64,000 bases of DNA from Ehretia macrophylla (lineage: Eukaryota; Streptophyta; Magnoliopsida; Boraginales; Ehretiaceae), in assembly GCA_037974665.1 (NCBI GenBank), contig CM075765.1, forward strand, positions 11,892,001 to 11,956,000. Reading direction: 5' to 3'. The notes under the pieces are model-generated. The model made no database searches and was not told the DNA's origin. It saw only the letters and a program-made list of their open reading frames with translations. The position numbers and the translations under genes are program-made. This document shows, in pieces, positions 25,220 to 57,360 of this stretch (position 1 is its first letter; each line of letters starts with the position of its first letter).

Positions 25220-26761
25220 TTAAAGAAATTTCATCCTCGAAATTCTTACTTGCTGTAGGTAAAGATCTAGATACTGTCGCTGCATCTGATCCCTTCTTTC
25301 CCAAGTAGCTTCCTCAATCCTGTGATGTTTCTACAACACTTTGACCATCAGAATTTTCTTCGACCTCAACTCCCGTTCCATCTTATCAAGAATGCGAATC
25401 GACCGCTTATCATAAGTCAGATTCTCCCAAAGTTGTAACGGCTCTGATTCAAGAATATAAGAAGGATGCGGATTATATTTTCTCAAATTAGACACATGAA
25501 AGACATCGTGAACATTAGAGAAATTCTCTGGTAAAGCCAACCAATATGCTAACTTGCCAACCCTTTCAGTAATCTCAAACGGCCCTGCAAACCTCGGACT
25601 CAACTTACCACTTTTACCATAACGAGCAAATCCTTTTCAAGGAGACAATTTCAAGAAAACCCGATCCCTGACTACAAACTCCAAATCCCAACGTCGCTTA
25701 TCAACAAAACTCTTGTATCTGCTCTACGCTGTAAGCATTCTTTGCCTGATCAACTAAACATTCTCAATCTTCTCTAGAAGCTCTGGCATGATAGTCGGAT
25801 CAATAGCCTTCACCTCCTTCACCTCCCCTACTTCATCCCAATACAAAGGTGATCGGCACTTACGGCCGTAAAGAGTTGCAAAAGGTGTCATCCCAATAGT
25901 CGCTTGATAACTGTTGTTATAGGCAAACTCGGCAAGTGGTAGATGTTTTTCCCAGTTCTTCCCGAAATCCAGAACACAAGCCCTGAGCATATTCTCCAGA
26001 ACCTGAATAGTCCTCTCAAACTGACGTCGGTCTGTAGATGATACGTTGTGCTAAAGTTTAAATGAGTACCCAAAGTCTCATGAATTTTCTCCCACAATCG
26101 AGAAGTAAATCGAGGATCTCGATCTGAGACAATACTAGATAGAATCCCGTGAAGTTTAACAATCTGATACACATAAAGATCTGCCAACTTTGCAACCTCA
26201 TCTCCTAACCTCATTAGAATGAAATGAGTTGTCTTTGTCAAACAGTCCACAACAACCTAAACTGCGTCATTACCTCTCGGTGTTCTAGGCAAACTAGAGA
26301 CGATGGCCATCGTAATATGTTCCCACTTCCATTCTGGTATTGCCAATGGTTGAAATAACCCTACAAGTCGTTAATGTTCTGTTTTCACCCGTTGACAAGT
26401 CAAACATCTGGATACAAACTGAGCAACTTCCCTTTTCATGTTATTCCACCAATAATGTTATTTCAAATCCCGGTACATCTTGTTTCCACTGGGATGAATG
26501 GTATACTTAGAAATATGAGCCTCCTCCAGAAAACCTCACCTCAAGCCCAGTTCATCTGGAACACAAATCCTATTTCGAAACTGAAGAATACCATCTTCAT
26601 GTAATTTGAAGTCAGACTGATGAACCGTGATCTGATTCTTGATCTTCTGAAGTTTTGAATCAAGTTGCTGAGCTTCTCTGATTTGAGACAACAATAAAGG
26701 TTAAATACGGAGATGTAAACACATCACCCCAACCTGAGTGAATTATGGTATTCAATAACTA
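25220..26761 (-). pseudogene. Tekay-like integrase with chromodomain-like C-terminus
   Basis: The core is readable as DCLTKTTHF (first Asp) and SIVSDRDPRFTS (second Asp), then FAYNNSYQATIGMTPFATLYGRKCRSPLYWDE. The C-terminal block SPRFAGPFEITERVGKLAYWLALP, VHDVFHVSNLRKY and RILDKMERELRSKKILMVKVL is followed by a TAG and then EEATWERRDQMQRQY. This is the chromodomain-like tail that marks the Tekay/Del branch of chromoviruses and is thought to direct insertion to certain chromatin. The reading ends RISRMKFL with TAA at 25220-25222, just before the LTR. Several frameshifts and stops, including TAG for Trp in KVLW, inactivate it. Confidence 0.88.
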
Positions 26762-27360
26762 AATTCTTCAAGAACCTCCCACTTTTTAATAGCCAAACAA
26801 GAAATACTCACCTTACGGCTAAGAGTGTCTGCTACCACATTTGCCTTCCTATACAGATAATTGATAGAACAATTATAATCTCCGAGAAGTTCCATCTACT
26901 TCCGTTGACGCATATTCAACTCTTTCTATGAAAACAAATACTTCAGACTTTTATGATCGATCAAAATCTTCAACTTACTGCCCCACAGATAATGACGCCA
27001 TTTTTTTAGTGCAAATACAACGGCTACCAACTCAAGATCATGAGTTGGATAATTCACCTCATACGGCTTCAACTTTCTACAAGCATAGGAAATAACCCGG
27101 CCATTCTGCATAAGTATACAACCTAAGCCCTCCTTGTGTGTATCGCTATAGATAACCATATTATCGGTCCCCTCTTATAGAACAAGTACTGGAGCGGTAG
27201 TCAACCTCTTTTTCAACTCCTGAAACCTACTCTCACATTTCTCATCCCAAATAAAGCTGGTTTGTTTCTAAGTTAATTTAGAAAGTGGCCCTGCAATCTT
27301 AGAAAAGTCCTTCACAAACCTACGATAATAACCCGCCAAGCCAAGGAAACTACGAACCTC
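26762..27360 (-). pseudogene. Tekay-like RNase H domain
   Basis: [43 protein letters not shown] (26926-27159, given here in short pieces) is the Ty3 RNase H signature: [17 protein letters not shown] and YPTHDLE. It is followed by the DHKSLKYLF block and, after stops, NVVADTLSRK. RNase H degrades the RNA strand of the RNA-DNA hybrid during reverse transcription. At least two in-frame stops interrupt it. Confidence 0.85.
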
Positions 27361-28310
27361 CGAAACATTCTCCGGCCGTTTTCAAGACATCACCACTTCA
27401 ATCTTAGTGGGATCTACAGAAATACCACTCTATGTAATCGCATGGCCAAGAAATGATATTCGTTGCAGCCATAATTCACATTTGCTGAACTTTGTAAACA
27501 ATTGATGCTCTTGCAGCTTCTGTAAGTCAAGCCGTAGATGGTGCTCGTGCACCGATTCAGACTTAGAATAAACCAAAATATTATCAATAAAAATTACCAC
27601 AAACTGGTCCAAGTAAAGCTGAAAGACCCAATACATAACATCCATGAATGTTGTCGGTGCATTAGTCAATCCAAAGGGCATAACTATAAATTCATAATGC
27701 CCGTACCGAGTCCTGAAAGTAGACTTTAGAACATCTTTTGTACAAATCCGAAGCTGATAATAGCACTGCCTCAAGTCAAACTTAGAGTACACTTTTGCTC
27801 CCTGAAGTTGATCAAACAACTCGTCAATCAGTGATAAAGGATACTTGTTCTTGATGGTTACCTGATTCAAACCACGATAATCAATACATAATCTCAAGGT
27901 ACTATCCTTCTTCTTCATAAATAATACAAGTACTCCCCATGGTGAAGAACTCTGCTGAATGAAACCCTTCTCTAATAACTCCTACAACTAAGTTTTCAAC
28001 TCCTTAAGCTCATCAGTGCCATCTGGTACACTAATTTAGAAATAGGTTGAGTACCGGGAATCAGATTAATCACAAACTCAACATCTTTATCTGGAGGCAA
28101 TCCTGGCAACTCCTCGGGAAATACATTGGAATATTCCAAAATAATAGGAACTTCATCCAGCTTTAGCTTATCGGATGGCTTATTGATCAAATAAGCTAGA
28201 TAACCCGAACACCCCTTACTCACCAGCTTAATAGCTTTAGTTGATGAGATAACAAAACTCGTCTTAGTATCCTGGTTCCCTGCTACCTCAACCACTGGCT
28301 GATCTGGCAA
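27361..28310 (-). pseudogene. Tekay-like reverse transcriptase and linker, active site altered
   Basis: The protease-RT linker reads FPEELPGLPPDKDVEF (28310-27996), and the RT core from 27918 reads [31 protein letters not shown] and [12 protein letters not shown]. The catalytic box is F-I-D-N at 27580-27591 where this group has F-I-D-D, so the second metal-binding aspartate is lost by one transition. The fingers-to-thumb region continues to ISFLGHAIT followed by a stop, and [17 protein letters not shown] follows. The enzyme would make cDNA from element RNA; this copy cannot. Confidence 0.9.
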
Positions 28311-28794
28311 ACAAATCTATACAACATTTGTTCTATAGTTTAACTGGGCATCGTACTTAGAAAGCCAGTCCACACCCAAGATAACATCATAACCTCGGAT
28401 AGGAAATAAGATAAAGTCCGAAGAAAAATCCTAACCCTTAACATGTATTTTACAGTCTTTACATACTAAGCCAGTCACATACTTATCAGTTAAAGAAGTA
28501 CTAATCTCAACCACATAAGGCAATCTTTCAGGTTGCATGTTAACACGTTGCACACAAGTAGGCATAATGAAAGAATGTGTAGTACCAGAATCAATCAATA
28601 CTTTAACAAGTTAACTGAGTATAAGGAAGTTACCTTCTAAAACTGTCGCTGCCTCAGGTACTTCCTCCAAATCCACTGCGTAGGCCCGAGCCTGAACCCT
28701 CTGCTGCTGAGGTGCACCATCGATAAGTCGACCCTGATAACCCTGGGTCACTGTCCGATCCTCAGACCTCTGAAATCTAAGGCAATCCTTCACC
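28311..28794 (-). pseudogene. Tekay-like aspartic protease
   Basis: VLIDSGTTHSFI places the catalytic D-S-G-T at about 28583-28594. It is followed by GYDVILGVDWLSKYDAQL, which closes the Ty3 protease. A stop precedes VKVLIDSG. The segment before it (MKDCLRFQRSED...) is the end of the gag zinc knuckle. The protease would cut the Gag-Pol precursor. Confidence 0.85.
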
Positions 28795-29933
28795 CTGTGC
28801 TAATTGCTGCCGCAACCCAAACAAGTTCTTGCTTTCACCCACGGCTTCCAAATGGCCTTGACGTTTGCAGTAAGTACACTGTGGTGACGAAGTACTAACA
28901 CTGCCCCTCGAAGACCCATAAGCTGAAAAAGTAGTTGTACCAGCCTGTTGCTGGGGTCTCGCAACACTAGGCCTATATTGACCCTGAGACTAGGCCGACC
29001 TATACTATGATTGAGCCTGGAATGATCCCTGCTGAAACTGGGGCCTATAGAAACCCTGCTGACCTTGCAATCTGAAAGAGCTTTGCTATACTGGCGGCCT
29101 ATACACAACCTGCTGCATTGGAGGCCTACACATACCCTGCTGACCCTGCGGCTAAAATGGCCTCTTACTAGACTGATTAGGACCAATCTGTTCCCCTTTC
29201 CTCTTTTTCAACCTAGATGCTGCCTCAAAAGCCTAAGAAAATACATCATACTGATTCAGGGCCATTGCATCCTGAATCTCTGGCCTCAAAGCCAACATAA
29301 ACCTCCAAGTCTTACGCTCCTCATCTGCTACAAATTCTGGTGCATACCGGGACAGCCTGGTAAAAGTGGCCTTATACTAGGCCACTGTAGCATCACCCTG
29401 AACTAAAGACAGGAACTCCGCCTCTCTTAGTTCCCGCGCAATCCTCGGAACGTACTTGGCCTGAAACTCTCTAAGAAAAGTATCCTAAACATAAGGAGTA
29501 CCTTGTGCCTCCCAACTGCTTTCACTGTACGCCACCACTCTTCGGCCTCATCATTAAACAAATAAACTGCAAAAGTGACTTTCTTCTTGTCAGTGTAATC
29601 CAAAGGATAAAAAATCTTCTCAATCTTCTTGATCCATGCCTCCGCCTTTCTATCATCTCACTCACCCTGGAATCTCGGTGGATAGTAACCCAAGAATTCT
29701 TTCAACGTATTTTACCTGTGGTAACCACCCTATGCATTCATTATCTATGCCTGCAGAGCCTGTGCCTGGGCAGCCTGCCTTGCTAATAACTGTGCCTGTC
29801 TTGCCATGATTCCCATCATTCTATCCATAGCTGCAGCAATATGGTCATCACCCCGATCTCGGCCTGGTGTTACATTACCCGGTGCCTCATTATCTGCCTT
29901 CGGCCTATCTCTTGTTCTCGGTCGACCCGCCAT
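28795..29933 (-). pseudogene. Tekay-like gag (capsid and zinc knuckles)
   Basis: The start codon is the ATG complemented at 29931-29933 (MAGRPRTRDRP). The capsid segment contains WIKKIEKIF, VTFAVYLF and AEEWW. A glutamine-rich tail (QQGFYRP, QQGSFQAQS) leads to CTYCKRQGH and CLGCGSN-stop-HRVKDC, two zinc knuckles. In-frame TAGs fall at 28990-28992, 29005-29007, 29152-29154, 29233-29235 and 29377-29379 (plus-strand CTA), in settings where CAG (Gln) is expected. Gag would form the virus-like particle. Confidence 0.85.
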
Positions 29934-30226
29934 TATACTAATAAAGAGTTAGCACGGGTTATAGCACATAGACAGGCTATAGACAATTATTATCACATAA
30001 GTAACAAACTCACATAAAGCACATAAATCACTTAAGTATAAATTACATAAACAAATTGATCACATAATTACATAGTCACTAAATCATGTAATCACTTAAT
30101 CACTTAATCATATTAACACACATTTCACTTTTCTTTGACTTCATACATACTTTCATGCTAAGACCATTACCCACATTCCGAGAATACCCTGGCTTACAAC
30201 TAAACATAAGCTCTTATACCACTTAA
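29934..30226 (-). promoter_or_regulatory. Tekay-like untranslated leader with primer-binding site
   Basis: GCTCTTATACCA at 30210-30221 is the complement of a TGGTATCAGAGC initiator-Met-tRNA primer-binding site with one mismatch, five bases inside the 5' LTR. The rest, up to the gag start at 29933, is AT-rich and non-coding. Confidence 0.8.
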
Positions 30227-32645
30227 TGTAATGCCCCAACTCGACCCCACCTACGATCAGTCAGGACGCAAAGGAATTTTGATAGCATAACGACAGTAAC
30301 ACGGACATCAGGGCTTTAATCCAACCCTTTAGAACATCATACAACCAACTCCACAAATCACCAATCAACTCTACAATCAAGTTAGCAACATATAACGCAA
30401 CAAAAATATACTTTAAACATTCTTTCACCATTCCATCCTTAAGTTACACGCCTCCGTTCCAACATCATACATCACTAAGTAAAGTCATATACATACATAA
30501 CATATCATACTAGCTTAGCAACTTATTTGAATAGAAAAGTAAGACAACTAAACTAGCATAACACTTTTACTATCTTTTGATCAGTTTATACAATACAACC
30601 TTTAAAACTTGAAACTCTACAACATAAGTCATACTGCAAAATAGTATAAAACATTCTAGCTAAGCATCAGGATATGACTCTGGCACATAAGAATCCTCAA
30701 CAAAAGTCACATTCTCAACCTCCTGAGACACATACCCGTAGTCCTATTCAGTAACACATGTATGCATATAACGAATGTGAGTGAGTTTATATAAAACAAG
30801 CCCTATGAGGATTCGATAGATCTTTTAAAATTATTTACTATACTCCTTGGAAATCATCCTTTGAGCAGTAAACACATAACAGACATCAATAACAATATAA
30901 GCACAACAATAATAATAACCAATCAATAAGGACACTCTAATTGGTGTAGCTCCAAACATCATCACGATCTCAACCATCTTTTTATAACTCCCAATTACTC
31001 ACACACTCGAGGTACTTTACTAGCCCCTCCTTCCATGGCACCTTCGCCCATGCGAGCTGGGAGTAAATTATGGTAGTCATGCCATTATCAACCCGACAGC
31101 CCAACACTGCCCGAGAGGTGGCACACACATACCAAGACTCATGACAATAATAATAATCATTCATATCGCAGGATGACAACAAAATAGGTTGCCTATCTCC
31201 CGGCTTCATCAATAATCAATCACTTAACATCATTTCAACAACATAATATTAATTAATCAGTTAACAACTCAACAACTAAGTTAGATGACAGAGTAGGCCA
31301 TCCAACTTAACATGCATTAAACCACTCAACCAAACCCAAATCTAACCAACAACAACCCATGATTCAACCACTCAAACAACTAAAGACATTATTTCAACAT
31401 TTAAAGAAAGACTACTCAAACTTCCAAAAGTCATAACTTACAATCTATTAATCCAATAACCTCCAAAATAGTTTCTATCACTCACCCACTCAAGCAACTA
31501 CATTAGCCCCTCGGAAACCAACCACAATCCATCTAAAACAAGCCCAACAACCCTAAAACCTCAATGCACCATGGCTGAAATTTCTGAACTTTCACCACGA
31601 TATCACAATCAAAATTTTGGCATTACAACATTACTACCACGTATTTAACAAACTTTTAGAAGCTAACAGTAATAAATTCCAACCACCATAACTCCATGAA
31701 ATCAACAACAAGCCAATAATTCAATTTTAATACCCGAAAAATAAAAATACATGCTACCACAGTTCAAAATAGCTATAAACTCATATAAATGATCCTTTGC
31801 ATCTACTGAGCAATATTCTAACATCAATTCTACATTTCAACAACAAAAAATTCAATTATATGAATTGACATAAAAATAGCATTTTGAGATCTAGAATTTT
31901 TCTCTCACCTTTGATGTTATATGATACAAGAAAGATGTGCAATGGGTGCCCAACAAGTGAAATCAAAATTTGGTTCAAGATTATTGGCTTTGTATTGCAA
32001 ATTCTATGAGAAAAATTGATAAAAAATAAAGCAAAAATGGATCCTAGGTGTTCGGCCATGTGTGTGAGATTTGGAGGTGTTTGAGCTTTGTTTTATGAGC
32101 TATTTTTGTTATATTAAACATATATAAGGCAAGTCAACAAAATTAAAAGCAAGTCAAAGGTGAAACAATTTAGTATTTTTAGTCTTTTAATTCTATTTCT
32201 TGACTACTTTTGCTCACAACATGCAATTAACTCCTAGACTATTTTAAGTAGCATATTTTTAGTTGACAACAAGTTTTACATACAAATACTTTCACCCGAC
32301 TCGGTTAAAAACTCAATTTCCACAAAAGAATGTGTAAAAACCTTTAAAATTTCTAATCCGATTTGAAATCCATTTTCATCAGACATGGGTCTATTAATGT
32401 TCGAGGACTAGGTTTTAAAATGCTTAAAACACTCCTGTAAAAATTTTAGGTGACGTGCGGCCAAAATACTATTCACAAAAACTGTCGATAAAATTTATGA
32501 TGCTGATTTTGATAAAAATTTCATGGATGCACACATAGCATGTATTAGGAATATAAATTATAGAATTAGCGCATTCCAACTCATATAACACATAAACAGG
32601 TCAAATCACGCAAATCTAGACAAATACAAAATTTGGGGTCTCACA
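30227..32645 (-). repeat. Tekay-like 5' LTR (uninterrupted)
   Basis: It starts TGTAATGCCCCAACTCGACC and ends GGGGTCTCACA. It is 2419 bp and aligns throughout with the 3' LTR, mostly with transition differences. It preserves the empty site of the 21310-23828 insertion. Confidence 0.9.
30758..31908 (-). other. Predicted LTR leader intron in the Tekay-like 5' LTR
   Basis: The donor CATCAAAG/GTGAGAG starts at 31908. The acceptor position at 30758 reads CAT instead of CAG, a change private to this copy. Length is 1151 bp. A clear TATA box CCTTATATA is at 32120-32128, about 212 bp before the donor. Confidence 0.45.
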
Positions 32646-38588: not shown

Positions 38589-41196
38589 TGTAACACTCCG
38601 ATCCCTCTCGAGACCGGAGGTTCTATCAATCAATCTAATCACAACCCAATTCTAAACCCGGGCAAATATTTTAGGGAAAGACAGGCGAAGTCTCCCCTAT
38701 TTCTAGGCAAAATGCAAACCTGTGACAACATATAAGTGGACCAGCACCATGTCCAACCATACAAAACTTCCTCAAGGCCATCCGAGCCTTGGTTCTCAAC
38801 AATTAAGCACAAGTAAATATACAATTCCAAGTTCCCAGACTATTCTAACTTTTCCTTAAGCAATACAAACATGCATTAAAGTAAAGCTATACTATCTAGA
38901 TACATAAACTAACTTATCAAACACTTCAATAATCTAGTAAAAACTTAAATTACATTCCTTTTGACATTAAATACATTCAATACATGAAACATACATCTTT
39001 GCATCTTTGACAACTCAAGCCATATAGCACGCAAGACAACTCTTCAAGCACTAACTTTCACGTAATCACGAACTTTCCAGCTAACATGGTATTTCCTGAA
39101 ATGTGGTGGTGAGGAGTGAGTATACTCAACACGTATACTCAGTGAGGGTGAGACAGATATCGAGGTGAAAAAAGAGAAGTTCGTGCAATGCAAATAGGTA
39201 CAGTTAAGCAACATAATCAATAAGGAAACATTCAATGTAAACGACAATACAATAAACAATTAAGATAGCTTTAACATAACCATTCAAAGCTATACCACAC
39301 TTTGAAGGCTATGGTTCACTCGAGCGAGTAATGTACCGATCACGATTTCGATGACTTTAACGATGACGCGCTGGCTCACCCACCTTATAACTTCCGTTTA
39401 AAGTACTTCGGACATACTCTGTCAATTCTACGACCCAAAACTCCTTGGGCGGCAACCCAAGTGAGAAAGGGAATAGGACACGGAGCTAGAGCAACCAACA
39501 CTGGCAACCTGAGGCTACCCAGAGAGGCCCATCACTCACGCGCCTAACACTTATGCAATGCAATACGAGATATATAACGATAATCGAGCAAAGTACCGAA
39601 GCGTAGGTTAGTAACAACATGCGATACAATAAGCATTACAATCTATAAAGTAACAAGAATAACACTAACAAGCATTATCAACAATTGATATACAATTCAA
39701 TCATAGCCAACTTTAGCAAGCATAACAAGCAATATTAAGTATTCTATAGGCATTACACTATGAAAACAAACAAAATCACAAAATGACCCCAACTTTCAAA
39801 ACGCTACTACTTTCAAACGAGCCACGAGTTTTAAAAACCGACTTCACCAATCCACCTAGGTCACCATAAGGCACGTCTAAAGACCCCGAAACCCTATGTT
39901 TCCCTTGAATTCACGCAAAGTCCCGATTTTTTCCTTTACTTATTTGAACTACCGCTACCCTAACCAAACACCCAACCGATGCCATAACCACACCAAAAGT
40001 GCTTCCATGGCCTCCCGAGACAATGCCATCACGTAAAACGAGAAAACGCTAAACTCGACCTAAACGTCCCCAACTTTTACCAAGGCATTTTTCCTCATTT
40101 TCCATTACACAATCCAAACAAATCATGCATTTAGGCATTCTAGCATATCTAACATCTTTTCACATCAACAGAACGCATAACAGAACAACTTCGTCGAAAT
40201 GGGGATTTACTATTCATAATTTACTATTTAATTTTCAATTTCAATTTCAATTTCGATATTCAACCGCAGAAAATGCTAAAAAGCTATAAATACATGTTCT
40301 ACAATTGCTAGGGAACATTCTTCAAGAATCAAAACGAATTAAATAACAATCTATGGCTAAAACCCAAAAACTAGAGTTTAGACAAAACAATTTCAAATGC
40401 GCAAATAACGATGAAACCCTCACCTTAGACATTCCTAGATGCTAGGAAAACCATGCTGGATGCCTCGAAAACCACCCTGTGCAAGCTCACGCGAAGATTT
40501 GAAGTTTTGATATTGAAATCTTTTTTTTTTATCTCCTTGTATTTTCGGCCTGCTCTTCTTTTTTTCAGCTTTTTGCTTTTTTTTTTTCTTTTTTTTGTAG
40601 TGTATTATGCATATAAGGTGACAACAAAGTCAAATGGTCAAGGCCCCTTGGTCAATGCTAACTAAACATGGTCAAAGTAGTTCATTTTGTGTATTTTAAG
40701 CTTAAAACAACTAACACAATTTTAATTCTAATCAACAACAACTAAAATACTAAAATTAAAACACTAAATACTAGTTTTCACTATGTGCTAAGGACTAGAA
40801 AATACTATCTAACAATCGCTCTCGAAATGCAATGCACTTTGCGACAATAAAAGAATAACAATTAAATCTCAAAGAATTTAAGAAAATATAATTTTTGAAA
40901 AGCAACATAGTTCAAAATTTACTCCAGCTCGGAGCTACTTTTCATTTAATTGAAAACCGAGCATTAAAGTGCAAGAAAAATAAAATTGAATAACATAAAT
41001 ATGAAAAGTAGTTGATATTCCGTTAAAATAATTAACTCAAGTATTATTTAATTACTTCTAAAAGAAATATGAAAATAATGCCAGAAATGTATGTTTAACT
41101 AAAAATAAACACGAAATTCAATGCTAACATTTAAGATGTCACTTAATTAAATACAATTAAATGCCATTAAATGCATGCCGGGTTCGGGTTATCACA
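38589..41196 (-). repeat. 3' LTR of the 38589-45591 element
   Basis: It starts TGTAACACTCCGATCC and ends GGGTTATCACA. A TATA box on the minus strand, CCTTATATGCATAATA, is at 40602-40618. It is collinear with 42992-45591. Confidence 0.92.
39096..40423 (-). other. Predicted LTR leader intron, reference copy (1328 bp)
   Basis: The minus-strand donor GTCTAAG/GTGAGGG starts at 40423, about 180-190 bp after the TATA box. The acceptor CCACATTTCAG/GAAATACC ends at 39096. Hairpin 1 is 39117-39141 (TGAGTATAC, loop TCAACAC, GTATACTCA). The solo LTR at 55739-57101 lacks exactly this interval. Confidence 0.65.
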
Positions 41197-42991
41197 TCAT
41201 TCCCCCCTTAAAACAATTGCGTCCTCGCAATTCTTCTTCCAATAGAACTCTACATCCACTTAAATCCAACTCTGACTAATCTTCATCAGCTACGCTATTA
41301 ATCAAGATAACCAATAAGGAAGTTTAAGAAGAAATCCAAGTAGTAATGCCGAATAAAGGCTCAAATGTAGATACCGTACAAGAATCCCGTTGACACGAAT
41401 ATCGAAGAAGAATAAAATTCCAACCAAGAGCGCCGAGATAATACCAAAAAAGACTAAAGCAAAGATACTATAGATAAAATCACATCACATATTAATGATA
41501 AGAAGAATACCGAATGAATACCTCATACAAGAATTTCTAGTAGAAGTTCAACTATTACTGCCCGAGAATTCCCAAGCAAGAAGCCAAATAAAAGCTCAAA
41601 CAAAGGTTCCATCTAGAGGTCCAAAGAAATACCCGGCTAGTCATGAATTTCATAGAAGAATTCCCTGTTAAGAGTGCTGAAGAAAATACTAAGAAACCCA
41701 ATCAAATATACTTCAAAAGTTCCAAAGAAGCCTTCCAAATAATAACCCCATAGGACAACCAATTAGATTCCGAGTATCGCTATCAAATGCTGAGAAGAAT
41801 GTCAAAGGGAATAGCAGAGAAAATATAATGTGCCCAATAAGACAATCAAGTTGAATAACAAATATAGTTTCCCAGATAGACGAAAACCCTAAGGAAAATA
41901 CTGAGCTGGTGCACAATATACAAAACCAAACTCCGAGGCCCCTGCACTGTTTACCAAGTGAAAATTTTATACAACTTACCACCAAGAAAGCCCAAAGTAT
42001 TCCACAGCATACCATAAGCAATATGAGATAATAAGTCTAAACATGATTCCAAGTGTAAGACTTCCAATAAGTGCCATCAAGGAAAGATACTTGTAGATTG
42101 CCCACTAAGAATTCTATAAAATGCCATTGAAGAATTTCCAATCAGGGATGCCAGTATCACACCAATAAAGACCGAGACACATATACCATAGATAATATTG
42201 TGCAGTAACTCCAATTGAGATCCCAATAGCCAAGTCCACAGAGAAGTGCCAACAAAAGTTTCCAAAGAATACCCAATAAGAAAACCAAATAATGCCCCAG
42301 AGGACAACCAAATAAACCCTAAAAGAAAGCTACTCTTTCACAACTGTTAAACACAGAGGAGGACCTTAAAGATTCACCAATAACCAAGATCCAAAAGCAA
42401 ACACCAACTCCCAAATAAAGTCTAATTAAATGCCATTCATTTCCTGCCAATCCATACACCTTGAGAGACCAGCTGTGAACCACTTTCTTCAGGGGAAGAA
42501 GAAGTTTTTCTTACCATTTCAATAGGACATGTATGATTGCCAAGATATCACATTTATACATACATGCCTTAAACTACTATGCAAGCAAGTTTATAAAACA
42601 GTTTATTCAACAAAGTCACTCAAGCACGACAATCAAGTCAAGCACAACATAATCAATTCAAATCACGGCATAACCAATTCAAGGCATCCTAATACTCACA
42701 TTACAAGCAATACTTCAAGCAAATAACAATTCACGAGATCAATTCGATTCACGATGCCAATTTGATAGGTCAATTCAATGCACAGCTAGACACTTCACTT
42801 TACTTGAGAAACATTTAACACATAACACATAACTATATCACATAGGTACATATATTCAAGCCAAGACACACAATCTCACATACAGGCATACACTTTCAAG
42901 ACACACTTAACAAGCACACATTCAAGGATCACTACCCACCAGACCGATGACCCTGTCCCGGCTTATGAGCTAGACAAGCTCTGATACCACC
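41197..42991 (-). other. Non-coding internal region with degenerate repeats
   Basis: No gag or pol is visible. From about 41300 to 42330 the sequence is a loose series of similar phrases (CCAATAAG, CCAAATAA, AAGAATTCC, CAAGAATTTC) spaced some 40-70 bp apart, like a decayed tandem array. Short ORFs in it, for example 41713-42021, arise from the repeats. The polypurine complement TTCCCCCCTTA is at the left end and the primer-binding site at the right. Confidence 0.7.
42978..42989 (-). promoter_or_regulatory. Primer-binding site, initiator Met-tRNA type
   Basis: GCTCTGATACCA is the exact complement of TGGTATCAGAGC and lies two bases inside the 5' LTR. It is where the tRNA would prime minus-strand DNA. 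Confidence 0.9.
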
Positions 42992-45591
42992 TGTAACACC
43001 CCGATCCCTCTCAAGACTGAAGGTTCTATCAATCAATCAAATCACAACCCAATTCCAAACCCGGGCAAAAATTTTAGGGAAAGACGGACGGAGACTTCCC
43101 TGTTTCTAGGCAAAATGCAAACTTGTGACAGCATATAAGTGAACCAGCACCATGTCCAACCATAAAAAACTTCCTCAAGGCCATCTGAGCCTTGATTCTC
43201 AACAATTAAGCACAAGTAAATATACAATTCCAAGTTCCCAGACTATTCTAACTTTTCCTTAAGCAATACAAACATGCATTAAAGTAAAGTTATACTATCT
43301 AGATACATAAACTAACTTATCAAACACTTCAATAATCTAGTAAAAACTTAAATTACATTCCTTTTGACATTAAATACATTCAATACATGAAACATACATC
43401 TTTGCATCTTTGTCAACTCAAGCCACATAGCACGCAAGACAACTCTTCAAGCACGAACTTTCACGTAATCACGAACTTTCCAGCTAATATGATATTTCTT
43501 GAAATGTGGTGGTGAGGAGTGAGTATACTCAACACGTATACTCAATGAGGGTGAGACAGTATCGAGGTGGAGAGAGAGAAGTTCGTGCAATACAAATAGG
43601 TACAGTTAAGCAACATAATCAATAAAGAAACATTCAATGTAAATGACAATACAATAAACAATTAAGAAAGTTTAACACAACCATTCAAAGCTATACCACA
43701 CTTTGAAGGCTATGGTTCACTCGAGCGAGTAATGTACCGATCACGATTTCGATGACTTTAACGATGACGCGCCGGCTCACCCACCTTATAACTTCCGTTT
43801 AGAGTACTCCGGACATACTCTGTCAATTTTACGACCCAACACTCCTTGGGCGGCAACCCTAGCGAGAAAGGGAATAGGACACGGAGCTAGAGCAACCAAT
43901 ACTGGCAACCCGAGGCTACCTAGAGAGGTCCATCACTCACGCGCCTGACACTTATGCAATGCAATACGAGATATATAACGATAATCGAGCAAAGCACCGA
44001 AGTGCAGGTTAGTAACAACATGTGATACAATAAGCATTACAATCTATAAAGTAACAAGAATAACACTAACAAGCATTATCAATAATTGATATACAATTCA
44101 ATCATAACCAACTTTAGTAAGCATAACAAGCAATATTAAGTATTCTATAGGCATAACACTATGAAAACAAACAAAATCACAAAATGACCCCAACTTTCAA
44201 AATGCTACTACTTTCAAACGAGCCATGAGTTTTGGAAACCGACTTCACCAATCCTCCTAGGTCACCATAAGGCACGTCTAAAGACCTTGAAACCTGACTT
44301 TAGCCAAGAATTCACGCAAAGCTCCGATTTTTCCCTTTGCTCGTTTGAACTACCGCTACCCTAACCAAACACCCAACCAACGCCATAATCACACCAAAAG
44401 TGCTTCCATGGCCTCTCGAGACAATGCCATCATGCAAAACGAGAAAAAGCTAACTCAACCTAAATGTCCCCAACTTTCACCAAGGCATTTTTCCTCATTT
44501 TTTCATTACGCAACCCAAACAAATTATGCATTTAGGCATTCTAGCATATCTAGTATCTTTTCACATTAACAAAACGCATAACGAAGCAACTTCATTGAAA
44601 CGAGGATTTACTATTCATAATTTACTATTCAATTATCAATTTCAATTTCAATTTCAATATTCAACCGTAGAAAATGCTAAAAAGCGATAAATATATATTT
44701 ACAATTGCTAGGGAACATTCTTCAAGCATCAAAATGAATTAAATAACAATCTACGGCTAAAACTAAAAAATTAAAGTTTAGACAAAACAATTTCAAATGC
44801 GCAAATAATGATAAAACCTTCACCTTAGACACTCCTAGACGCTAGGAAAACCATGTTGGATGCCTCGAAAACCACCCCGTGCAAGCTTACGCGAAGATTT
44901 GAAGTTTTGATGTTGAAATCTTTTTTTTTTCTCTCCTTGTATTTTCAGCCTGCTCTTCTTCTTTTTTTCAGCTTTTTGCTTGTTTTTTTTTTGTAGTGTA
45001 TTATGCATATAAGGTGTCACAAAGTCAAATGGTCAAGGCCCCTTGGTCAATGCTAACTAAACATAGTCAAACTAGTTCATTTTGTGCATTTTAAAGCTAA
45101 AATAACCAACACAAATCTAATCCTAGTTAAATACAACTAAAATACTAAAATTAAAACGCTAAATACTAGTTTTCACTATTTACTGAGGACTAGAAATCAT
45201 TTCCTAACTATCGCTCTCAAAATACAATGCACTTTGCGACAATAAAAGAATAACAATTAAATCTCAAAGAATTTAAGAAAATATAATTTTCGAAAAGTAA
45301 CATAGTTCAAAATTTACTCCGGCTTGGAGCTACTTTTCATTTAATTGAAAACCGAGCATTAAGGTGCAAGAAAAATAAAACCGATTAACATAAATATGAA
45401 AAGTAGTTGATATTCTGTTAAAATAATTAACTCATGTATTATTTAATTACTTCTAAAAGAAATATAAAAATAATGCTAGAAATGTATGTTTAACTAAAAA
45501 TAAACACGAAATTCAATGCTAACATTTAAGATGTCACTTAATTAAATACAATTAAATGCCATTAAATGCATGCCGAGTTCGAGTTATCACA
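42992..45591 (-). repeat. 5' LTR of the 38589-45591 element
   Basis: It starts TGTAACACCCCGATCC and ends GAGTTATCACA. The TATA-like CCTTATATGCATAA is at 44999-45012. Differences from the 3' LTR are mostly transitions. Confidence 0.92.
43499..44823 (-). other. Predicted LTR leader intron (5' LTR of 38589-45591)
   Basis: The donor GTCTAAG/GTGAAGG starts at 44823. The acceptor position reads TTTCAAG instead of TTTCAGG, one transition; length is 1325 bp. Hairpin 1 is 43520-43544 (nine perfect pairs). Hairpin 2 is 43801-43821 (AGAGTA/TACTCT). Confidence 0.55.
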
Positions 45592-46397: not shown

Positions 46398-47005
46398 AAT
46401 AACCTTGGTTTACCTTCAGTGACAAGGCTTGTGATGCCCGAGATTTCCCATCACGTCATACGTAACTATTGCATATTTGTTTGAGCAATTTTATGTTCAT
46501 TTCTTTTTTTTGCTTCTATGCTTTATTAGTGGTTACTATTTATAAAAAATTCAACTGTCTAAATTGCTCAGTTTAATATTTTTTCTAGATAGTATAACTT
46601 ATAAAAGGAATCGAAAACTTTTAGTTTTGGGCTTTAGAGGTCGGGAACGTGCATTTGAAAAATGATTTGCGCTTCGTTTGAACAATGTAACATTGGTGAA
46701 ACAATGGTTTTAATTAGTTAGCAATTATACGAGTTTTTAACATGGTTTGACTAAGTTTTAGCTAGCAATTGACTTTTATTAAAACACATACACATACATA
46801 TATATCTAATATACCTTATATACATGAAATTGGCCCAAAAAATTATTCAAGAAAACCCCAAAATGTCCCCCTTACTCGTCGACCATAAGAAGGAAAAAAT
46901 GAGGAGAAAACTTTGCTCAATCTTTGCGTCTTGGTCTCTTAGTTTGATTTTAGAAGATCTTTGGAGTAGCTAGGAGCATCACCACCTAGCCAAAACCTTG
47001 TACAA

Positions 47006-48339
47006 GTGAGGGAGTTGCATAATTTTCATGTTTTAAGTTTATGTCAATTGTATGAAATTCTTGAATTGTTGATTATAGCTATGTTAATTATTATTGATGC
47101 TTGACATACAATCTTGAGAGCCTATAGAACTCTCTTTTATAGCTTGATAACAACCTCTATGGTTGAAAGCTTGATTTGCACAAAGAAGATGATGAATAGT
47201 GAGGAATTTTAGGGTTTTGATATAACTTGCTATTTAGAGTGAATTGATACTTCCTGTAGGTGCTCTAGACGTTAATGAAGCTAGTTAGAAGCTAACGTGT
47301 AGTTAATTTGCCTGAATTGTTGTTAAAATGCAAAATTAGCTAACTTTAAAAAGGGGGGTTTTCACGTAACATAATCTGAGCACGTTTGGACTTTAGATTA
47401 GGTATCCCTGGGGCATGGAAGCACTTTTAGTACTTTTGTTGTGTTAAATTGGGGTCCAGATATGGTAGGTATAGTTAAAACTCGCTAGGGGCCTTCCCGA
47501 GCTTTTGCCTCCAAAACGGATTTCAGGGCTTTGATAGGTGTCTTTTGACTTCCTTATAAATGTAGAATGATTGGATTGTAGTTTTGGAGCCTTAAATTTC
47601 ATATGAAAGAAGAATTTTATAGTTAAAGAAAGGGAAAAACTGATAGAAGGGTACCTTTGTGCTTATAAGAGCTTGTAGATGTATTGTTATGTATTTATAT
47701 GCTTGTCTAAGGTATAATTGAGTTAATTGAAGAGTTTGTGGAAAGAATATGTCATTTGTCACTTTTATGGTTATATCGTTAAACTGCGTATAATGGCTTA
47801 TATTGTGGCTAATTGTAAGAGCGGCCTACTTTGTCGTCCCTCTTACGTGTTACTTGGAAATATTGGCTCTTGTGAACTTGATTCGGGGTTGCGCAACCTA
47901 TTCGGGCATGGTAGTGTCGAGTAACACGGGCGGCATCGAGCTTGCCGTGCTCTCTCGACTACCATGGTTTCCTAGTCCCTATCTCACTGAAGCATACTCC
48001 CCTACCCTAGAGGCGTGGTTCACCTCATTGGGGCATACGGACCTACCTCTCGAGATTATGGGTCGTAGGATCGGGGTACATTCGGAGTACCCCATTTGGA
48101 GGAGTAAGGGGTTTGCCGGCATTTGCTTGAAGATTTTGGTTCGTGGCTTATGATTAAAGACAAAAGTGGAACTATATCCTTTTTATACATGGTTAAATAC
48201 TTGTCTAATTAGCTTTGTTATTTTGTGTTATTATTGTTACTATCTTTGTTACATCTCATGGAAGCACTCCCCGTTTTACTATATCACATCCCTCATTGAG
48301 TAACTTTGGTTACTCATTCCTCGTTTTAACATGTTTCAG
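47006..48339 (+). other. Predicted LTR leader intron (5' LTR of 46430-53135)
   Basis: The donor TACAA/GTGAGGG is at 47006, about 185 bp after the TATA box. The acceptor AACATGTTTCAG/G ends at 48339; length is 1334 bp. Hairpin 1 is 48297-48316 (TGAGTAAC/GTTACTCA, eight perfect pairs), 23 nt before the acceptor. Hairpin 2 is 48073-48093 (GGGGTAC/GTACCCC). Confidence 0.55.
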
Positions 48340-48643
48340 GTGCAGTTAGGACAACTACCTTGTGTGTCGTGTTGTTTAATGCGTATCTTGCTAAAGTTGG
48401 AAGTTGTTTGTGAGGATGGGACTTGATGTGTTTGTGTTCTATTTGGAGACCCTTGAGGTCTTTTATGTATTTTTGTATGGCTTGTTGGATTGTAAACTAA
48501 ATTAAGAACTTATGTGATTTGATAGAGTAGTTGGCATGTAATAGCTAAAGATAGACTTTATCATCTTTTGATTGCATGCTCGTGTGGTTATGTTTTGTCT
48601 AAGGCTCAGATGGCTTTAAGATTAAGAAAAATTGGACAGTTGA

Positions 48644-49239
48644 TGTAACGCCCCCGAACACGCACCCACGCCTGCAGGATACACCCCGCCCTTAACGGGT
48701 CCGAGCGTGCACCGAGGCCATGGCGTACGCACCCAGAGGCGCACTATGTGTAAATTGTCCGCTGTGGGGCCCATACCCCTCACGGTTTTGCTTTCCACGC
48801 AGCCACTGTCACGTGAAAACGCGTACACACGATATGAGGAGCGAACTCCTTATATCTAGTAGCCCAGTCTCGTCTGCGTCCGATGTGGGATGCGATTCCT
48901 CACATTCACCCCCCCTTAAGGAGGCCCGCGCCCTCGCGGGCTAACGGCACAAAGGACACGTCTGCTCTGATACCACCTTTGTAACGCCCCGAACACGCAC
49001 CCACGCCTGCAGGATACACCCCGCCCTTAACGAGTCCGAGCGTGCACCGAGGCCATGGCGTACGCACCCAGAGGCGCACTATGTGTAAATTGTCCGCTGT
49101 GGGGCCCATACCCCTCACGGTTTTGCTTTCCACGCAGCCACTGCCACGTGAAAACGCGTACACACGACATGAGGAGCGAACTCCTTATATCAAGCAGCCT
49201 AGTCTCGTCCGCGTCCGATGTGGGATGCGATTCCTCACA
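48644..49239 (-). mobile_element. TRIM (terminal-repeat retrotransposon in miniature), 596 bp
   Basis: Two LTRs of about 260 bp (48644-48904 and 48980-49239) flank only 75 bp. That core contains the polypurine complement CACCCCCCCTTAAG and GCTCTGATACCA (48964-48975), the initiator-tRNA primer-binding site complement. Perfect GTTGA duplications lie at 48639-48643 and 49240-49244. By eye the LTRs differ at about eight positions including one indel, so the insertion is fairly recent. It is much richer in GC and CpG than its surroundings. No gene is encoded, and no 5S-like block is seen, so it is not a Cassandra type. Confidence 0.95.
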
Positions 49240-50970: not shown

Positions 50971-53135
50971 TGTGATGCCTGAGATTTCCCATCACGTCAT
51001 ACGTAACTGTTGCATATCCGTTTGATCAATTTTATGTGCAGTTCTATTTCTTGCTTCTATGCTTTATTAGTGGTTACCATTCATAAAAAAATCCAACTGT
51101 CTAAATTGCTTAGTTTAATATTTTTCCTAGATAATATAACTTATTAAAGGAATCAAAAACTTGTAGTTTTGGGCTTTGGAGGTCAGGAACATGCATTTGG
51201 AAAATGATTTGCGCTTCGTTTGAATAGTGTAACATTGGTGAAATAAGTTTTAATTAGTTAGCAATTATAGGAGTTTTTAACATGGTTTGACTAAGTTTTA
51301 GCTAGCAATTGACTTTTATTAAAACACCTACACATACATGTATATCTAATATACCTCATATACATGCAATTAGCTCAAAAAACAATTCAAGAAAACCCTA
51401 AAATGTCATCCCCTACCCGTCGACCATAAGAAGGAAAAAAAGAGGAAAAAACTTTGCTCAATCATTGCATCTTGGTCTCTTAGCTTGATTTTGTAGGATC
51501 TTTGGAGCACCTAGAAGTATCACCACCTTGCCAAAACCTTGTACAAGTGCAGGAGTTGCATAATTTTCATGTTTTAAGTTTATGTTAATTGTATGAAATT
51601 CTTGAATTGTTGATTATAGCTATGTTAATTAGTTATTGATGCTTGATATACAATCTCTAGAGCTCACAGAACTCTCTCTTATAGTTTGATAACAATCTCA
51701 ATGATTGAAAGCTTGATTTGCACAAAGAAGATGATGAATAATGAGGAATTTTAGGGTTTTGATATAACTGGCTATTTAGAGTGAATTGATACTTCTTTTA
51801 GGTGCTCTAGATATTAATGAAACTAGTTAGAAGCTCACGTGTAGTTAATTTGCCTAGATTTGAGTTAAAATGCAAAATTAGCTAACTTTCAAAAGGTAGT
51901 TTTTCACGTAACGTAATCCAAGCATGTTTGGACTTTAGATTAGGTATCCTTGGGGCATGGAAGCACTTTTGTTGCTTTCGTTGTGTTAAATTGGGGTCCG
52001 AATATGGTAAGTGTACTTAAAACCTGCTCGGGGCCTTCCCCAGCTTTTGCCTCCAAAACGGATTTTTAGGGCTTTCATAGATGTCTTTTGATGTCCTTCG
52101 AAATGTAGAATGATTGGATTTTATTTTTGGAGCCTTAAATTTCATATGAAAGAAGAATTGCATAGTTAAAGAAAGGGGAAAAGGCATAAAAGGATACCTT
52201 TGTACTTATAAGTCTTTGTAGTTGTGTTGTTATGTGTTTATATGTTTGTCTAGGGTATAATTGAGCAAACTAAAGAGTTTGTGGAAAGAATATGTCATTT
52301 GTCTCTTTTATGGTTATATCGTTAAATTGCGTATAATGGCTTATATTGTGGCTAATTGCGAGGGCAGCCTATTTTGTCATCCCTCTTATGTGTTACTTGG
52401 AAATCTTGGCTCTCGTGAACTTGATTTAGGGTTGTGCAACCTATTCAGGCATGGTAGTGTCGAGTAATACGGGCGGTATCGGGCTTACCGTGCTCCCTCA
52501 ACTACTATAGTTTCCCAGTCCTTATCTCGTTGATGCATACTCCCCTACCCTAGAGGCGTGGTTCATCTTGTTGGGGCATACAAACCTACCTCGGGAGATT
52601 ATGGGTCGTACGATCAGGGTACATCCGGAGTACCCTATTTGAAGAAGTAGGGGGTTTGTCGACACTTGCTTGAAGATCTTGGTTCGTGGCTCATGATTGA
52701 AGTCAAAAGTGGAACCGTATCCTTTTTATACGTGGTTAAATACTTGTCTAATTAGCTTTGTTATTTTGTTTTATTATTGTTACTATCTTTGTTGATCTCA
52801 TGGAAGCACTCACCGTTTTACTGCATCATCTTCCTCACTAAGTAACTTTGATTACTCATTCCTCATTTTAACATGTTTCAGGTGGAGTTATGACAACTAC
52901 ATTGTGTGTCATGTTGTTGAATGCATATCTTGCTGAGGTTAGAAACTGTTTGTGAAGATGGGAGTTGATGTGTTTGTGTTCTGTTTTGAGACCCTTGAGG
53001 TCTTGTATGTATTTTTGTATGGCTTGTTGGATTGTAAACTTAATTAAGGACTTATGTGATTTGATAGAGTAGTTGTCATGTAATAGCTAAAGATAAACTT
53101 TATCGTCTTTTGATTACATATTCGTGTGGTTATGT
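50971..53135 (+). repeat. 3' LTR (visible part)
   Basis: It starts TGTGATGCCTGAGATTTCCC and is collinear with the 5' LTR until GTGGTTATGT at 53135, where element B starts. The TATA-like CCTCATATACATG is at 51355-51367. Confidence 0.88.
51547..52881 (+). other. Predicted LTR leader intron (3' LTR of 46430-53135)
   Basis: The donor position reads GTGCAGG at 51547 (GTGAGGG in the partner) and the acceptor AACATGTTTCAG/G ends at 52881; length is 1335 bp. Hairpin 2 is 52616-52636 (AGGGTAC/GTACCCT). Hairpin 1 near 52838-52858 has lost some pairs. Confidence 0.5.
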
Positions 53136-54521
53136 TGATCGCGTCGTTGAACGATCAATAATAAAGGGTAAAAAATAAAGCAACGACAATATAGATTAAA
53201 TTCCTCTTTGACCACGCGTATGGCTACTCAAGGGTCATCCTCAGGGAATTGGGATGATTGCTAAGAATTCATAAAGCAGAAGAGTAAATTCAATTGGTTA
53301 AGATTTGAATGACTACTGACTGACAAAACAAATAAAGACTAACTAACGGCAATTCCTAATTTTAACACAGTAAAGCTTGGGGTGTACTATGGTAAATGGA
53401 GCGATTTGGGATGTTAGTCGCCTACTTACTGTTAACTGTGTTCTGGGATTCGGGTTTCGCCAATTAAGTGAAAAAGACTAGGCTACAAGCTATAATCATA
53501 GGTTAGATTAGTTAAGGGGTGTCGAAGTATAACCTATCTTTAAGGCATAGATTATCATTCGCCTAGCCTATACTAATTAACTCAAGATATTCTTAATCTC
53601 TAATTGAGTTTAATAGGCATAGACTATCACGATAGATTGCCTATCTCAACTAAACCCAATTATAAATTAGGATTATGATGCCAATTCGTACCCCTAAAAT
53701 CTACAAGATTCAATGGCAGAAGAGTAGGAATTCTTGAAATACAAAACTATAACTACAAGTTCGTAGATGATAGATCAAGAAATCCAAATCCAATAATCCC
53801 TGTGTAAATCGATAGAATTGAAACATGAATCCCAACAGAGTATTTAGTAAATGGTTAACTGCTACCCCAAACCATGGGGTTTAGTGTGACGACATGCTAG
53901 CAAAAGTTAAAGGCAAGATAAAGAAAAATAGTTCAAGAAAGCAGAAAACTAGTCTGAGAAAACTCATGTGTTGAAGATGGTGATGATGCTTGGTAGAGCT
54001 TCTTGGATCTTGTTTGCTTCAATCTTGGCTAAAATTCGTGTTCTTCCTTCTTCTAGCAATAAATGAAGGCTCCCTTTTATGTTTAGGGTTAGGAAAAATT
54101 TTCCAAAAGCTGAAAATAAACGTTTAAATAAGAAAATAGGCTTGGTCAAAACATAAGTTGACCAAGCCCTAAGTTGCACGTTTGCAGCGTTGCTGAATCT
54201 CCCAACCTACTCGTGCAGGTTCTTGAGTTGTTTGCTGGAGTTCAGTTGATTGATTACTTGCTTGACAACCTGCTCAAGCAAGTTCTTGAACTTCTTTGTT
54301 GGGCTTCAGTTGCTCGAGTAACTCCATAGCTGCTCAAGCAGCTTCACACAACCTTCTATGCACATTTGCTCTTGTTCGTTCCTCTCGTGTCCCATTCTTT
54401 CCCATAGCACTGAGAACCTGCAAAAAACAAGAAATCTCTTGAATGTGCTAAAGGTCCTAATAATTAGATTACATATCGTGCGCCAAAGAATAGATTTAGA
54501 CATAAAATTATGAACTCATCA
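53136..54521 (-). repeat. Athila-type element B, 3' LTR
   Basis: It starts TGATCGCGTCGTTG and ends GAACTCATCA (1386 bp), followed by ACACCCCCAAACC, the polypurine tract complement at 54522-54534. The order of landmarks matches 11816-13347. Confidence 0.85.
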
Positions 54522-55738
54522 ACACCCCCAAACCCACTCTTTGTTTGTCCTCAAGCAAAGGAACAACGACAATCGACCTAAGACAAGACAACAAGTTAAT
54601 ACCAAGCAGATAATGAGACATGTTTGTGGTTCAAGCAAGCACACAACGGGTGCACAAGTCAACTTTCTTCCATCACACCCCATAATCAGTACGTAGTGGT
54701 GCCCACTATTTGGGCCAGTTTAAGCACCTCAAGACAAAATATAAAGATAAAAAAAAAATGGAGTCCACAAAACTTTGCTAGACCTAGAGTAATTCCGCCC
54801 CCATGCCACCCTCCCTTGTTACATTCAAACTGTGGTCCAAAGAATACAAGTGATGTTCCTCAAACAAAAGTGTACAATATTTTTTTATTTTTTATTTTTT
54901 TATTTGCAAACTTACTGGTTAGGTCCCCCGTGTAGCGAGGTTTCAATCAGTGACTCCCAGCCACTTAAGGCTTAAGGCACTAGGTGAAGAACACCTCTCA
55001 AATTTACTAGCTCGAGTTTCCCAACCACCTACACACAACCAAAAGCCAAACACACTGTCCCTTGTCTAAATGCATGGTTCCATATGGCTTTCTTGGTGTC
55101 CCATGTAATGGGCTTTCGAATCAACAATCCCAACCAATGTGGTTTAGGTTGTTAGGCTTTGAAAGGCCCTATGCGTATCTTATTTGCCCGAGACACCAAA
55201 GCTCGAAACCAGCACATTTTATTTCGCTCTTTTTTTTTTTGATTTTGTTGATTTGGTTGATTTTTTTTTTGTGTGCACAAGTAGGTCCATTCTATCTGTT
55301 GCATGTAAAGGGAACACATTGTACCTACAATCAGAGTTCAAGTATAACATGACAGAACAACAATCAAGCAAACGTCCTACCAAGTCTAGCGCAGGCTTAC
55401 GTACCTAATACTCCTACCTTTATAAGATAGCCTTGTGCTACTTACAGAATAGAAACACTACTCAAGGACACATAAATAAAGGGCATAGCAAGAGATGAAC
55501 TAGGGCACCCTGAAAAAGAAAATGATCGTAGCACAAATAGTCTCATTATTCACTTGGGGTCAACCATGTTGTGCAAAAAAAAAAAATGATTCAAATAGGT
55601 CGCTAATATTGATTATGCACAACCCTTTGTACCCCCAAACCCAAGTCTTGCAGTGTTCCCACTGCATGGAAAATGAAGTAAACTAAGGAGGTGCAAAGGG
55701 AGAAGAGAGGAAAATAAAAAGAAACGAAACAACATGGG
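54522..55738 (-). mobile_element. Athila-type element B, 3' non-coding region, distal part
   Basis: It starts with the polypurine complement and TTGTCCTCAAGCAAAG, shared with element A. The stretch 55060-55210 (CCCATGTAATGGGCTTTCG, then CCCGAGACACC) corresponds to element A 13820-13930. Poly-T runs occur near 54880 and 55230. It is non-coding. A second ACCCCCAAACCC box is at 55631-55642. Confidence 0.7.
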
Positions 55739-57101
55739 TGTGATAACCCGAACCCGACATGCACTTAAAGGCATTTAATTGCATTTAACTAAGTGACATC
55801 TTAAATGTTGGCATTGAATTTGTGTTTATTTTTAGTTAAACATTTATTTGTAGTTTTACTTTCATATTTCTTTTAGAAGTAACTAGAATAATACCTGAGC
55901 TAATCATATTAACAGAATATCAACTACTTTTCATATTTGTGTGAATCGGTTTTTTTTTTCTTGCACTTAAATGCTCAGATTTCAATTAAATGAAAAGTAG
56001 CTCCGAGCCGGAGTAAATTTTAAACTATAATACTTTTCAAAAATGATATATTTCTTAGATTCTTTGAGATTTAATTGTTATTTCTTTGTTGTCGCAACGT
56101 GCATTGCATATCGAGAGCGATAGTTAGAGAGCGGTTCCTAGTCCTCAACAAATAGTGAAAACTAGTGTTTGGTGTCTTAAATTTTATATTTTAATTATTG
56201 TTAGCTAGAATTAATATTACATTAGTTGTTTTAGCTTTAAAATGCATAAAATAAGCTAGTTTGACCAACCTAAGTGAGCATTGACCAAGCCTTGACCATT
56301 TTGACCTTGTGCCATCTTTTAATAGCCTAAAATAGCATAAAATAAAAGAAAAAACATACCTGAACAAAAAACAAGCAGGGCCGAAAATGAGGGAGAAGAA
56401 AAAAAGAAAAATTCAACTTCAAATCTTCGATTCTTCGCGTGAGCTTGCACGGGGTGGTTTCCGAGGCATCCTACGAGGTTTTCCTAGCGTCTAGGAGCGT
56501 CTAAGGAAATGTCATGTTAGCTGGAAGTTCGTGATTATGTGACAGTTCGTGCCTGAAGAGTTGTTTTGCATGCCTATGTGGCTTGAGTTGTCAAAGATGC
56601 AAAGATATATGCTTTCATATGTTGTATGTATTTATTGTTAAAAGAAATGTAATTTAAATTTAGCTAAGTAGTTGAGGTAAATTAATAAGCTAGTTTCTGT
56701 AATCAGTTAGCATAGCTTAACTTCAATGCCTGTTGTAAAGTCCAAAGGAAAAGAGCTAGAATGGCATAATAGTTTATTTTATGCAGTAGCTTAGTATGGT
56801 TTAATTGTCTAGTTAAAATGTACTTGTCAAAATGAAAAGAGATAGGTTAGCTTTTAAATTAGAAATGTATGTATACTTGCTAAGTTTAATTGTTAAGAAC
56901 CAAGGCTCGGATGGCCTTGAGGTGTTTGTATGGTTGGACTCGGTGTTGGTCCACTTATATGCTGTCGCAGGTTTTACATTTCGCCTAGAAATAGGGGAGA
57001 CTCCGTCCGTTTTCTCTGAAAATTTATGCTCGGGTTTGGTTTGAGTTGTGATTAGATCGATTGATAGAACTCCCGGTCTCGAGAGGGATCGGGGTGTTAC
57101 A
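55739..57101 (+). mobile_element. Solo LTR lacking the predicted intron (1.36 kb); family of 38589-45591
   Basis: It starts TGTGATAACCCGAACCC and ends CGGGGTGTTACA, with perfect ATGGG duplications (55734-55738 and 57102-57106). Its first 767 bp match the LTR part before the donor (773 bp in 38589-41196) and its last 596 bp match the part after the acceptor. The join between 56505 and 56506 reads GTCTAAG/GAAATGTCATGTTAG, exactly donor exon to acceptor exon. The TATA-like box is weak (TCTTTTAATAG near 56316). Confidence 0.88.
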
Positions 57102-57360
57102 ATGGGAGCCATTGCAGCAACATGACAACTCAAGAGTAGGAGAAGTACTAGCATGGTTCCACAATAATCCAATCCCTTACAAAGAGCACTAGCAAAACAG
57201 GTATAACAAAATTAGCCAAGCAAAACACAATATAGAAGGCCTATAAGATTGTACATACGTAAGTTGTCAACAATACAAGCCATGGTAGAAGCAACCAAAC
57301 AAAATAAGACACTGCACCCAATAACGCTAAAAGAAACAAAGAACAATGGAAAGTAAACGA

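Follow-up and report, generated by a model that had tools for sequence, protein, structure and literature searches.

How did a solo LTR on contig C2 of Ehretia macrophylla come to lack exactly 1,328 bp from its interior? The LTR lies at 55739-57101 of the window, the 64,000-bp stretch of DNA analysed here (C2:11892001-11956000; the genome comprises 1.58 Gb in 20 contigs). The original prediction had been that LTR RNA was spliced before reverse transcription. It had also named its own weak point: AGG stands at both breakpoints, so that a microhomology deletion would leave the same join.

The solo LTR and its join

The solo LTR (plus strand, 1,363 bp) starts with TGTGATAACCCG and terminates with GGGTGTTACA, has TG...CA ends, and is not followed by a primer-binding site (PBS). 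It carries the hallmark of insertion, a perfect target-site duplication ATGGG at 55734-55738 on the left and 57102-57106 on the right (plus strand), which bore out the claim of a real insertion with intact ends. When the LTR was aligned to an LTR of the same family in the window, it was collinear with the minus strand on both sides of the join. Positions 55739-56505 (exon 1 side; U3, with the putative promoter and R) matched 41196-40424, and positions 56506-57101 (exon 2 side; putative U5) matched 39095-38589. The interval 39096-40423 was absent to the base, as predicted.

The join reads GTCTAAG/GAAATGTCATG at 56499-56516 (slashes mark cuts), the last base of exon 1 being 56505 and the first base of exon 2 being 56506. 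In LTR orientation the excised interval reads AAG/GTGAGG...CACATTTCAG/GAAAT, with CTAAG preceding the cut. Alignment thus confirmed that the junction joins the donor exon exactly to the acceptor exon, with GT-AG boundaries. It also confirmed that AGG is common to both breakpoints of this copy.

Intron-bearing elements of the family

The LTR used for alignment belongs to a complete, non-autonomous element of the family at 38589-45591 (minus strand), which has two 2.6-kb LTRs, a PBS, a purine tract and a 1.8-kb internal part. Its 3ʹ LTR in element orientation (winA, 38589-41196, minus strand) retains the putative intron at 39096-40423, delimited by sequence and site scoring. Its 5ʹ LTR (winB, 42992-45591, minus strand) is 93.9% identical to winA, and by alignment its putative intron occupies 43499-44823, where the acceptor AG is mutated (TTTCAAG). 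The internal region (41197-42991, minus strand) has the PBS TGGTATCAGAGC at 42989-42978 and a purine tract adjoining the 3ʹ LTR (AAGGGGGGAATGA). No stop-to-stop frame of at least 110 aa was found within 41197-42991. By eye, the flanks of the element (CACCC and CACTC) match at 4 of 5 positions.

Another LTR, winC (21310-23828, minus strand), is a diverged member of the family. It is nested in another repeat and also retains the putative intron, here 1,308 bp at 21784-23091 (minus strand), with the sequence TCTCT/GTGAGG...TTTCAG/GAAAT and an exon 1 that ends in TCTTCAATCTCT. Identity between winA and winC is 76-87 positions per 100 in the final 500 intron bases and the 100 bases that follow, and 59-71 per 100 over the first ~750 bases of the intron. 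The greater likeness of this stretch, which runs from late in the intron into early exon 2 (winA LTR positions 1600-2200; window ~38997-39597, minus strand), may reflect function or recombination. An intron-bearing element on contig C7 has a PBS with one substitution, a target duplication ATGGC, and LTR starts 4,849 bp apart.

With its TG...CA ends, PBS, purine tract, target duplication and no coding capacity inside, the family is a non-autonomous, LARD-like LTR retrotransposon. The element has no coding region, and the Tekay/Del-type Ty3 lineage would be a tentative name for it. A search by motif for a TATA box in the short LTR, winA and winB gave nothing convincing. A short palindrome, GTATAC...GTATAC, was seen near the acceptor, in the stretch where winA and winC are most alike.

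Several other features of the window were recorded. A repeat pair spans 20264-32645; the nested winC LTR interrupts the left copy, reverse-transcriptase-like frames lie between the copies by eye, and the pair is probably an LTR element. Long direct repeats of 2.17 kb, 90% identical, lie at 46430-48594 and 50971-53136, with relatives at 4208-5407, 6647-7180 and 17572-18031, and are probably another LTR family. A 260-bp segment is present in two near-adjacent direct copies, 97% identical, at 48644-49239, and an open frame at 311-766 looks by eye like a partial cytochrome P450 gene.

Splice sites compared with microhomology

The GT and AG sites of the winA LTR were scored with an approximate plant splice matrix. 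By this matrix, the proposed donor ranked first of 210 GT and the proposed acceptor second of 149 AG. A second AG/GT site at winA LTR position 2477 (window ~38720, minus strand) was the top acceptor and the second donor by the same approximate matrix.

The AGG shared by the two breakpoints would allow a chance microhomology deletion, or a jump of reverse transcriptase on its template, to produce the window join. Against this stands the number of places where such an event could have fallen: the winA LTR allows 39,657 distinct deletions, 300-2000 bp long, that have 3 bp or more of microhomology, compared with 2 equally good donor/acceptor pairs. Because of the ranks of the two sites and this ratio of 2 pairs to 39,657 deletions, the window join goes beyond what chance would explain.

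The window join elsewhere in the genome

The original prediction had asked whether the same join occurs at other loci. A first join pattern, searched genome-wide with 3 mismatches allowed, gave 7,057 matches, 100 of which were listed. Among those 100, one was exact (the window copy), none had 1 mismatch, 92 had 2 and 7 had 3, and nearly all resembled acceptors by their letters. Twenty-nine of the 92 two-mismatch matches were made into loci, every one of which retains the intron; one further match is a copy on contig C12 described below, and the other 62 lay outside the comparison. One two-mismatch candidate, C6:61052366 (L077/L079), was rejected as an intron-bearing copy.

A clean join pattern extends further into exon 1, and by hand comparison intact donors and acceptors do not match it at 3 mismatches. 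Searched genome-wide with 3 mismatches, it gave 3 matches, and its reversed control gave 0. The matches were the window copy (0 mismatches), C12:42147545 (1 mismatch) and C20:23026123 (2 mismatches). The last (L084) has no homology to the LTR and was discarded as a chance match. Spliced copies that are strongly diverged escape both patterns.

The C12 copy (L078, C12:42145554-42149079; join near 2007) aligned straight through the join of the window copy, with 77% identity over 331-996. It terminates with GGGTGTTACA, and the first 330 bases of its LTR went unrecognised. Up to the join it has exon 1 of the main subfamily, and after the join it has an exon 2 like that of LTRs on contig C9; the first 120 bases of its exon 2 are 98.3% identical to a C9 LTR. 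Judged from its sequence, this mixed structure needs either a splicing event of its own or a template switch at the join. The join is therefore not confined to the window but recurs at a second, diverged locus, which is a further point against a chance deletion.

Retention of the interval among family copies

We compared 72 rows against the 5ʹ LTR of the C7 element, and a row was said to keep the interval when more than 40% of the interval was matched. The rows comprised 39 copies fetched from 40 scored ones (of 6,448 candidates; the 40th was the window copy), the 29 loci from the listed matches of the first pattern, winA, winB, the window copy and the C12 copy. The interval was kept in 69 of the 72 rows and the join was present in 2 (window and C12), while one (L034) was assigned to neither, in a sample that is non-random because copies were picked by similarity or by pattern and the LTRs of one element were counted separately. 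Donor and acceptor motifs were retained in the copies read, apart from scattered mutations (GC donors in L044 and L045; AA for AG in L038).

Small deletions with breakpoints of their own do exist in the family, as a deletion origin of the join would lead one to expect: the comparison, which detects clean gaps of at least 60 bp, found other gaps of 61-134 bp with breakpoints elsewhere. The only clean gaps above 134 bp between collinear matches in the 72 rows, however, were the two joins. Varied breakpoints in short copies had been named beforehand as a sign of chance deletion; in these 72 rows, clean gaps of that larger size fell at the splice positions and nowhere else.

Paired intron-less LTRs on contigs C9 and C2

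A different end of exon 1, CAATCTCT/GTGAGG, was found in five intron-bearing LTRs (winC, L049, L058, L062 and L076). In this winC-type subfamily, a single G is all that donor and acceptor have in common at the cut. A pattern for the winC-type spliced join, searched genome-wide with 3 mismatches, gave 4 matches, and the reversed control gave 0. The two C9 matches, at 34877506 and 34880392, have 0 mismatches each and lie on one strand at a distance of 2,886 bp. The two C2 matches, at 62475481 and 62478311, have 1 mismatch each and also lie on one strand, at a distance of 2,830 bp; one of these joins has A instead of G as the first base of exon 2.

In the 221-base stretches around all four joins, exon 1 passes directly into exon 2 of the intron-bearing relatives. 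Identity to the five intron-bearing relatives was 77-91% for the exon 1 pieces and 83-91% for the exon 2 pieces. The two stretches of the C9 pair are 97.7% identical to each other over 214 aligned bases, and those of the C2 pair 91.8%. When the window copy and the C12 copy are included, joins exactly at the canonical donor and acceptor occur in six LTRs, which represent four loci.

The two pairs are as expected for elements in which both LTRs are intron-less, and their spacing fits the 4,849 bp of the C7 element minus the 1.3-kb intron, allowing for internal length. Complete elements of this kind had been proposed as a check of the splicing reading, and the check was largely borne out. Two same-strand pairs are present, and the PBS TGGTATCAGAGC stands two bases after the upstream C9 LTR, whereas a 111-base stretch (L090), placed by the length of winC where the C9 3ʹ LTR should start, had U3-like letters by eye and contained no LTR start and no purine tract (PPT). 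The exon 1 of C9 therefore would differ in length from that of winC or be altered.

The weak point at AGG does not apply to the winC-type joins, because only one base is shared at the cut. A deletion or template jump guided by microhomology would thus have to explain splice-position joins at C9 and C2 as well, and we consider this origin of the window copy improbable. Reverse transcription of spliced RNA, the reading supported by the recurrence at C12 and by the paired C9 and C2 joins with one shared base, is the best supported explanation, and on the sequence evidence we regard it as very likely.

An ancestral form without the interval

The direction of change could also be the opposite: the short form may be ancestral, with the 1.3-kb interval inserted later between AGG repeats. 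That some interval-free copies (C12, C2) are diverged would agree with this order. In trees, however, the window copy is nested among intron-bearing copies whichever side of its join is analysed, and a homologous interval starting with GTGAGGGTTT is present in both subfamilies despite their different exon 1 ends. We therefore hold an ancestral short form to be extremely improbable.

Number of independent events

For the window and C12 copies, a pair chosen for the clade test after earlier trees had been inspected, grouping in one clade was rejected on exon 2 (p-AU 0.000237; 52 rows, 598 columns), and was not rejected on exon 1 (p-AU 0.109; 43 rows, 438 columns). A shorter exon 2 tree of the first 120 bases (74 rows, 121 columns) was weakly resolved and rejected none of three clades: C9 with C2 (p-AU 0.386), C9 and C2 with C12 (p-AU 0.555), and all six spliced LTRs (p-AU 0.101). 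The longer exon 2 alignment supports at least two events, not six. A single intron-less parent may have given rise to the insertions on both C9 and C2.

A mosaic block in the window LTR

Between 55978 and 56364 (LTR positions 240-626), the solo LTR has 0 mismatches to a copy on contig C7 (L012, C7:72447600-72451306), and its flanks differ by ~5%; beyond position 626 there are 7 mismatches in 142 bases. By this pattern of matches the block is a mosaic of recombination or strand transfer. Such a mosaic, together with an exon 2 that is nearest to copies other than L012, is what gene conversion of an existing LTR by spliced cDNA or RNA might leave; the join would then be RNA-derived with no new insertion from spliced RNA. 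Strand transfer also yields mosaics, though, and paired LTRs joined at both ends are the product of ordinary reverse transcription of spliced RNA. Gene conversion is accordingly a very improbable source of the window join. If the mosaic arose by strand transfer between two RNAs near position 626, it would give a weak hint that R lies upstream of the donor (LTR position 767), a placement that the splicing reading requires.

A model of spliced-RNA insertion

In the reading that we prefer, reverse transcription of spliced RNA, a spliceosomal intron of ~1.3 kb would lie wholly inside the long LTR, between the presumed transcription start and the PBS. Packaging and copying would almost always involve unspliced genomic RNA, and we propose that this is why the intron persists in nearly all copies seen. 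Now and then, an RNA whose 5ʹ leader had been spliced would serve as the template. Exons 1 and 2 would then be contiguous in the minus-strand strong-stop DNA, and both LTRs of the completed element would lack the intron. An LTR element derives its two LTRs from a single U3-R-U5 combination when it is reverse transcribed; an intron spliced from the 5ʹ leader should therefore be missing in both LTRs, with the PBS and PPT intact. The window copy would have begun as an insertion of this kind and would have become a solo LTR when its two LTRs recombined. A point against this reading is that spliced joins are rare: they were found in six LTRs at four loci, compared with 7,057 matches of the first pattern, of which the 100 listed mostly resemble acceptors.

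We also considered a more far-reaching possibility, which we put forward as doubtful: the LTR intron may have been kept as an RNA sorter, by which unspliced RNA would be packaged through signals in the intron and spliced RNA used otherwise. Leaked spliced RNA would then have founded a transposition-competent intron-less lineage (C9, C2, C12), and the C12 copy would have arisen by strand transfer or trans-splicing of co-packaged RNAs.

Comparison with known systems and meaning

L1 is copied by target-primed reverse transcription, and the splice sites of the SDARE of murine leukaemia virus (MLV) are not confined to the LTR. Human L1 gives rise to SpIREs (spliced integrated retrotransposed elements), which, like the copies described here, are DNA retrocopies of a spliced retroelement RNA, the splicing in L1 lying within the 5ʹ untranslated region (PMC5860796). 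They differ in that L1 is a non-LTR element, whereas the present intron is in the LTR and is gone from both LTRs of a pair. SpIRE-like features in the present family are a join at canonical donor and acceptor, occurrence at several loci, a target duplication (window) and a PBS (C9). Membership in the SpIREs of the L1 family proper was ruled out, since the element is an LTR element. The SDARE of MLV resembles the present case in that spliced retroviral RNA is packaged, reverse transcribed and integrated, and differs in that it belongs to an animal retrovirus with splice sites that extend beyond the LTR, as indicated in part by a passage on SDʹ (PMC10496198).

According to portions of the plant literature, plant elements generally have no introns (PMC12786077), and spliced RNA is described for the LTR elements BARE1 (PMC3735527), EVADE and Ogre (via PMC12786077), and sunflower Tyran and Varan (PMC7730604). 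As in the family studied here, these are plant LTR elements; in them, spliced and unspliced RNA coexist. In the same portions, the introns of BARE1, EVADE, Tyran and Varan differ from the present one in that they touch the gag-pol part. Among the listed titles and abstract beginnings of open-licence PubMed Central papers, none described a plant LTR that naturally contains a whole intron and has left spliced copies in the genome. The principle is already known from L1 SpIREs and the MLV SDARE, and an intron wholly inside an LTR together with natural spliced copies looks new.

The LTR of plant retrotransposons is usually regarded as promoter and terminator only, and the intron would sit in this very part. 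Because both LTRs are made from one U3-R-U5 combination, the LTR intron would act as a natural reporter: where it is precisely missing from both ends, the insertion would have come from spliced RNA. Counts of intron-less and intron-bearing insertions would then gauge how strictly an LTR element bars spliced RNA from reverse transcription.
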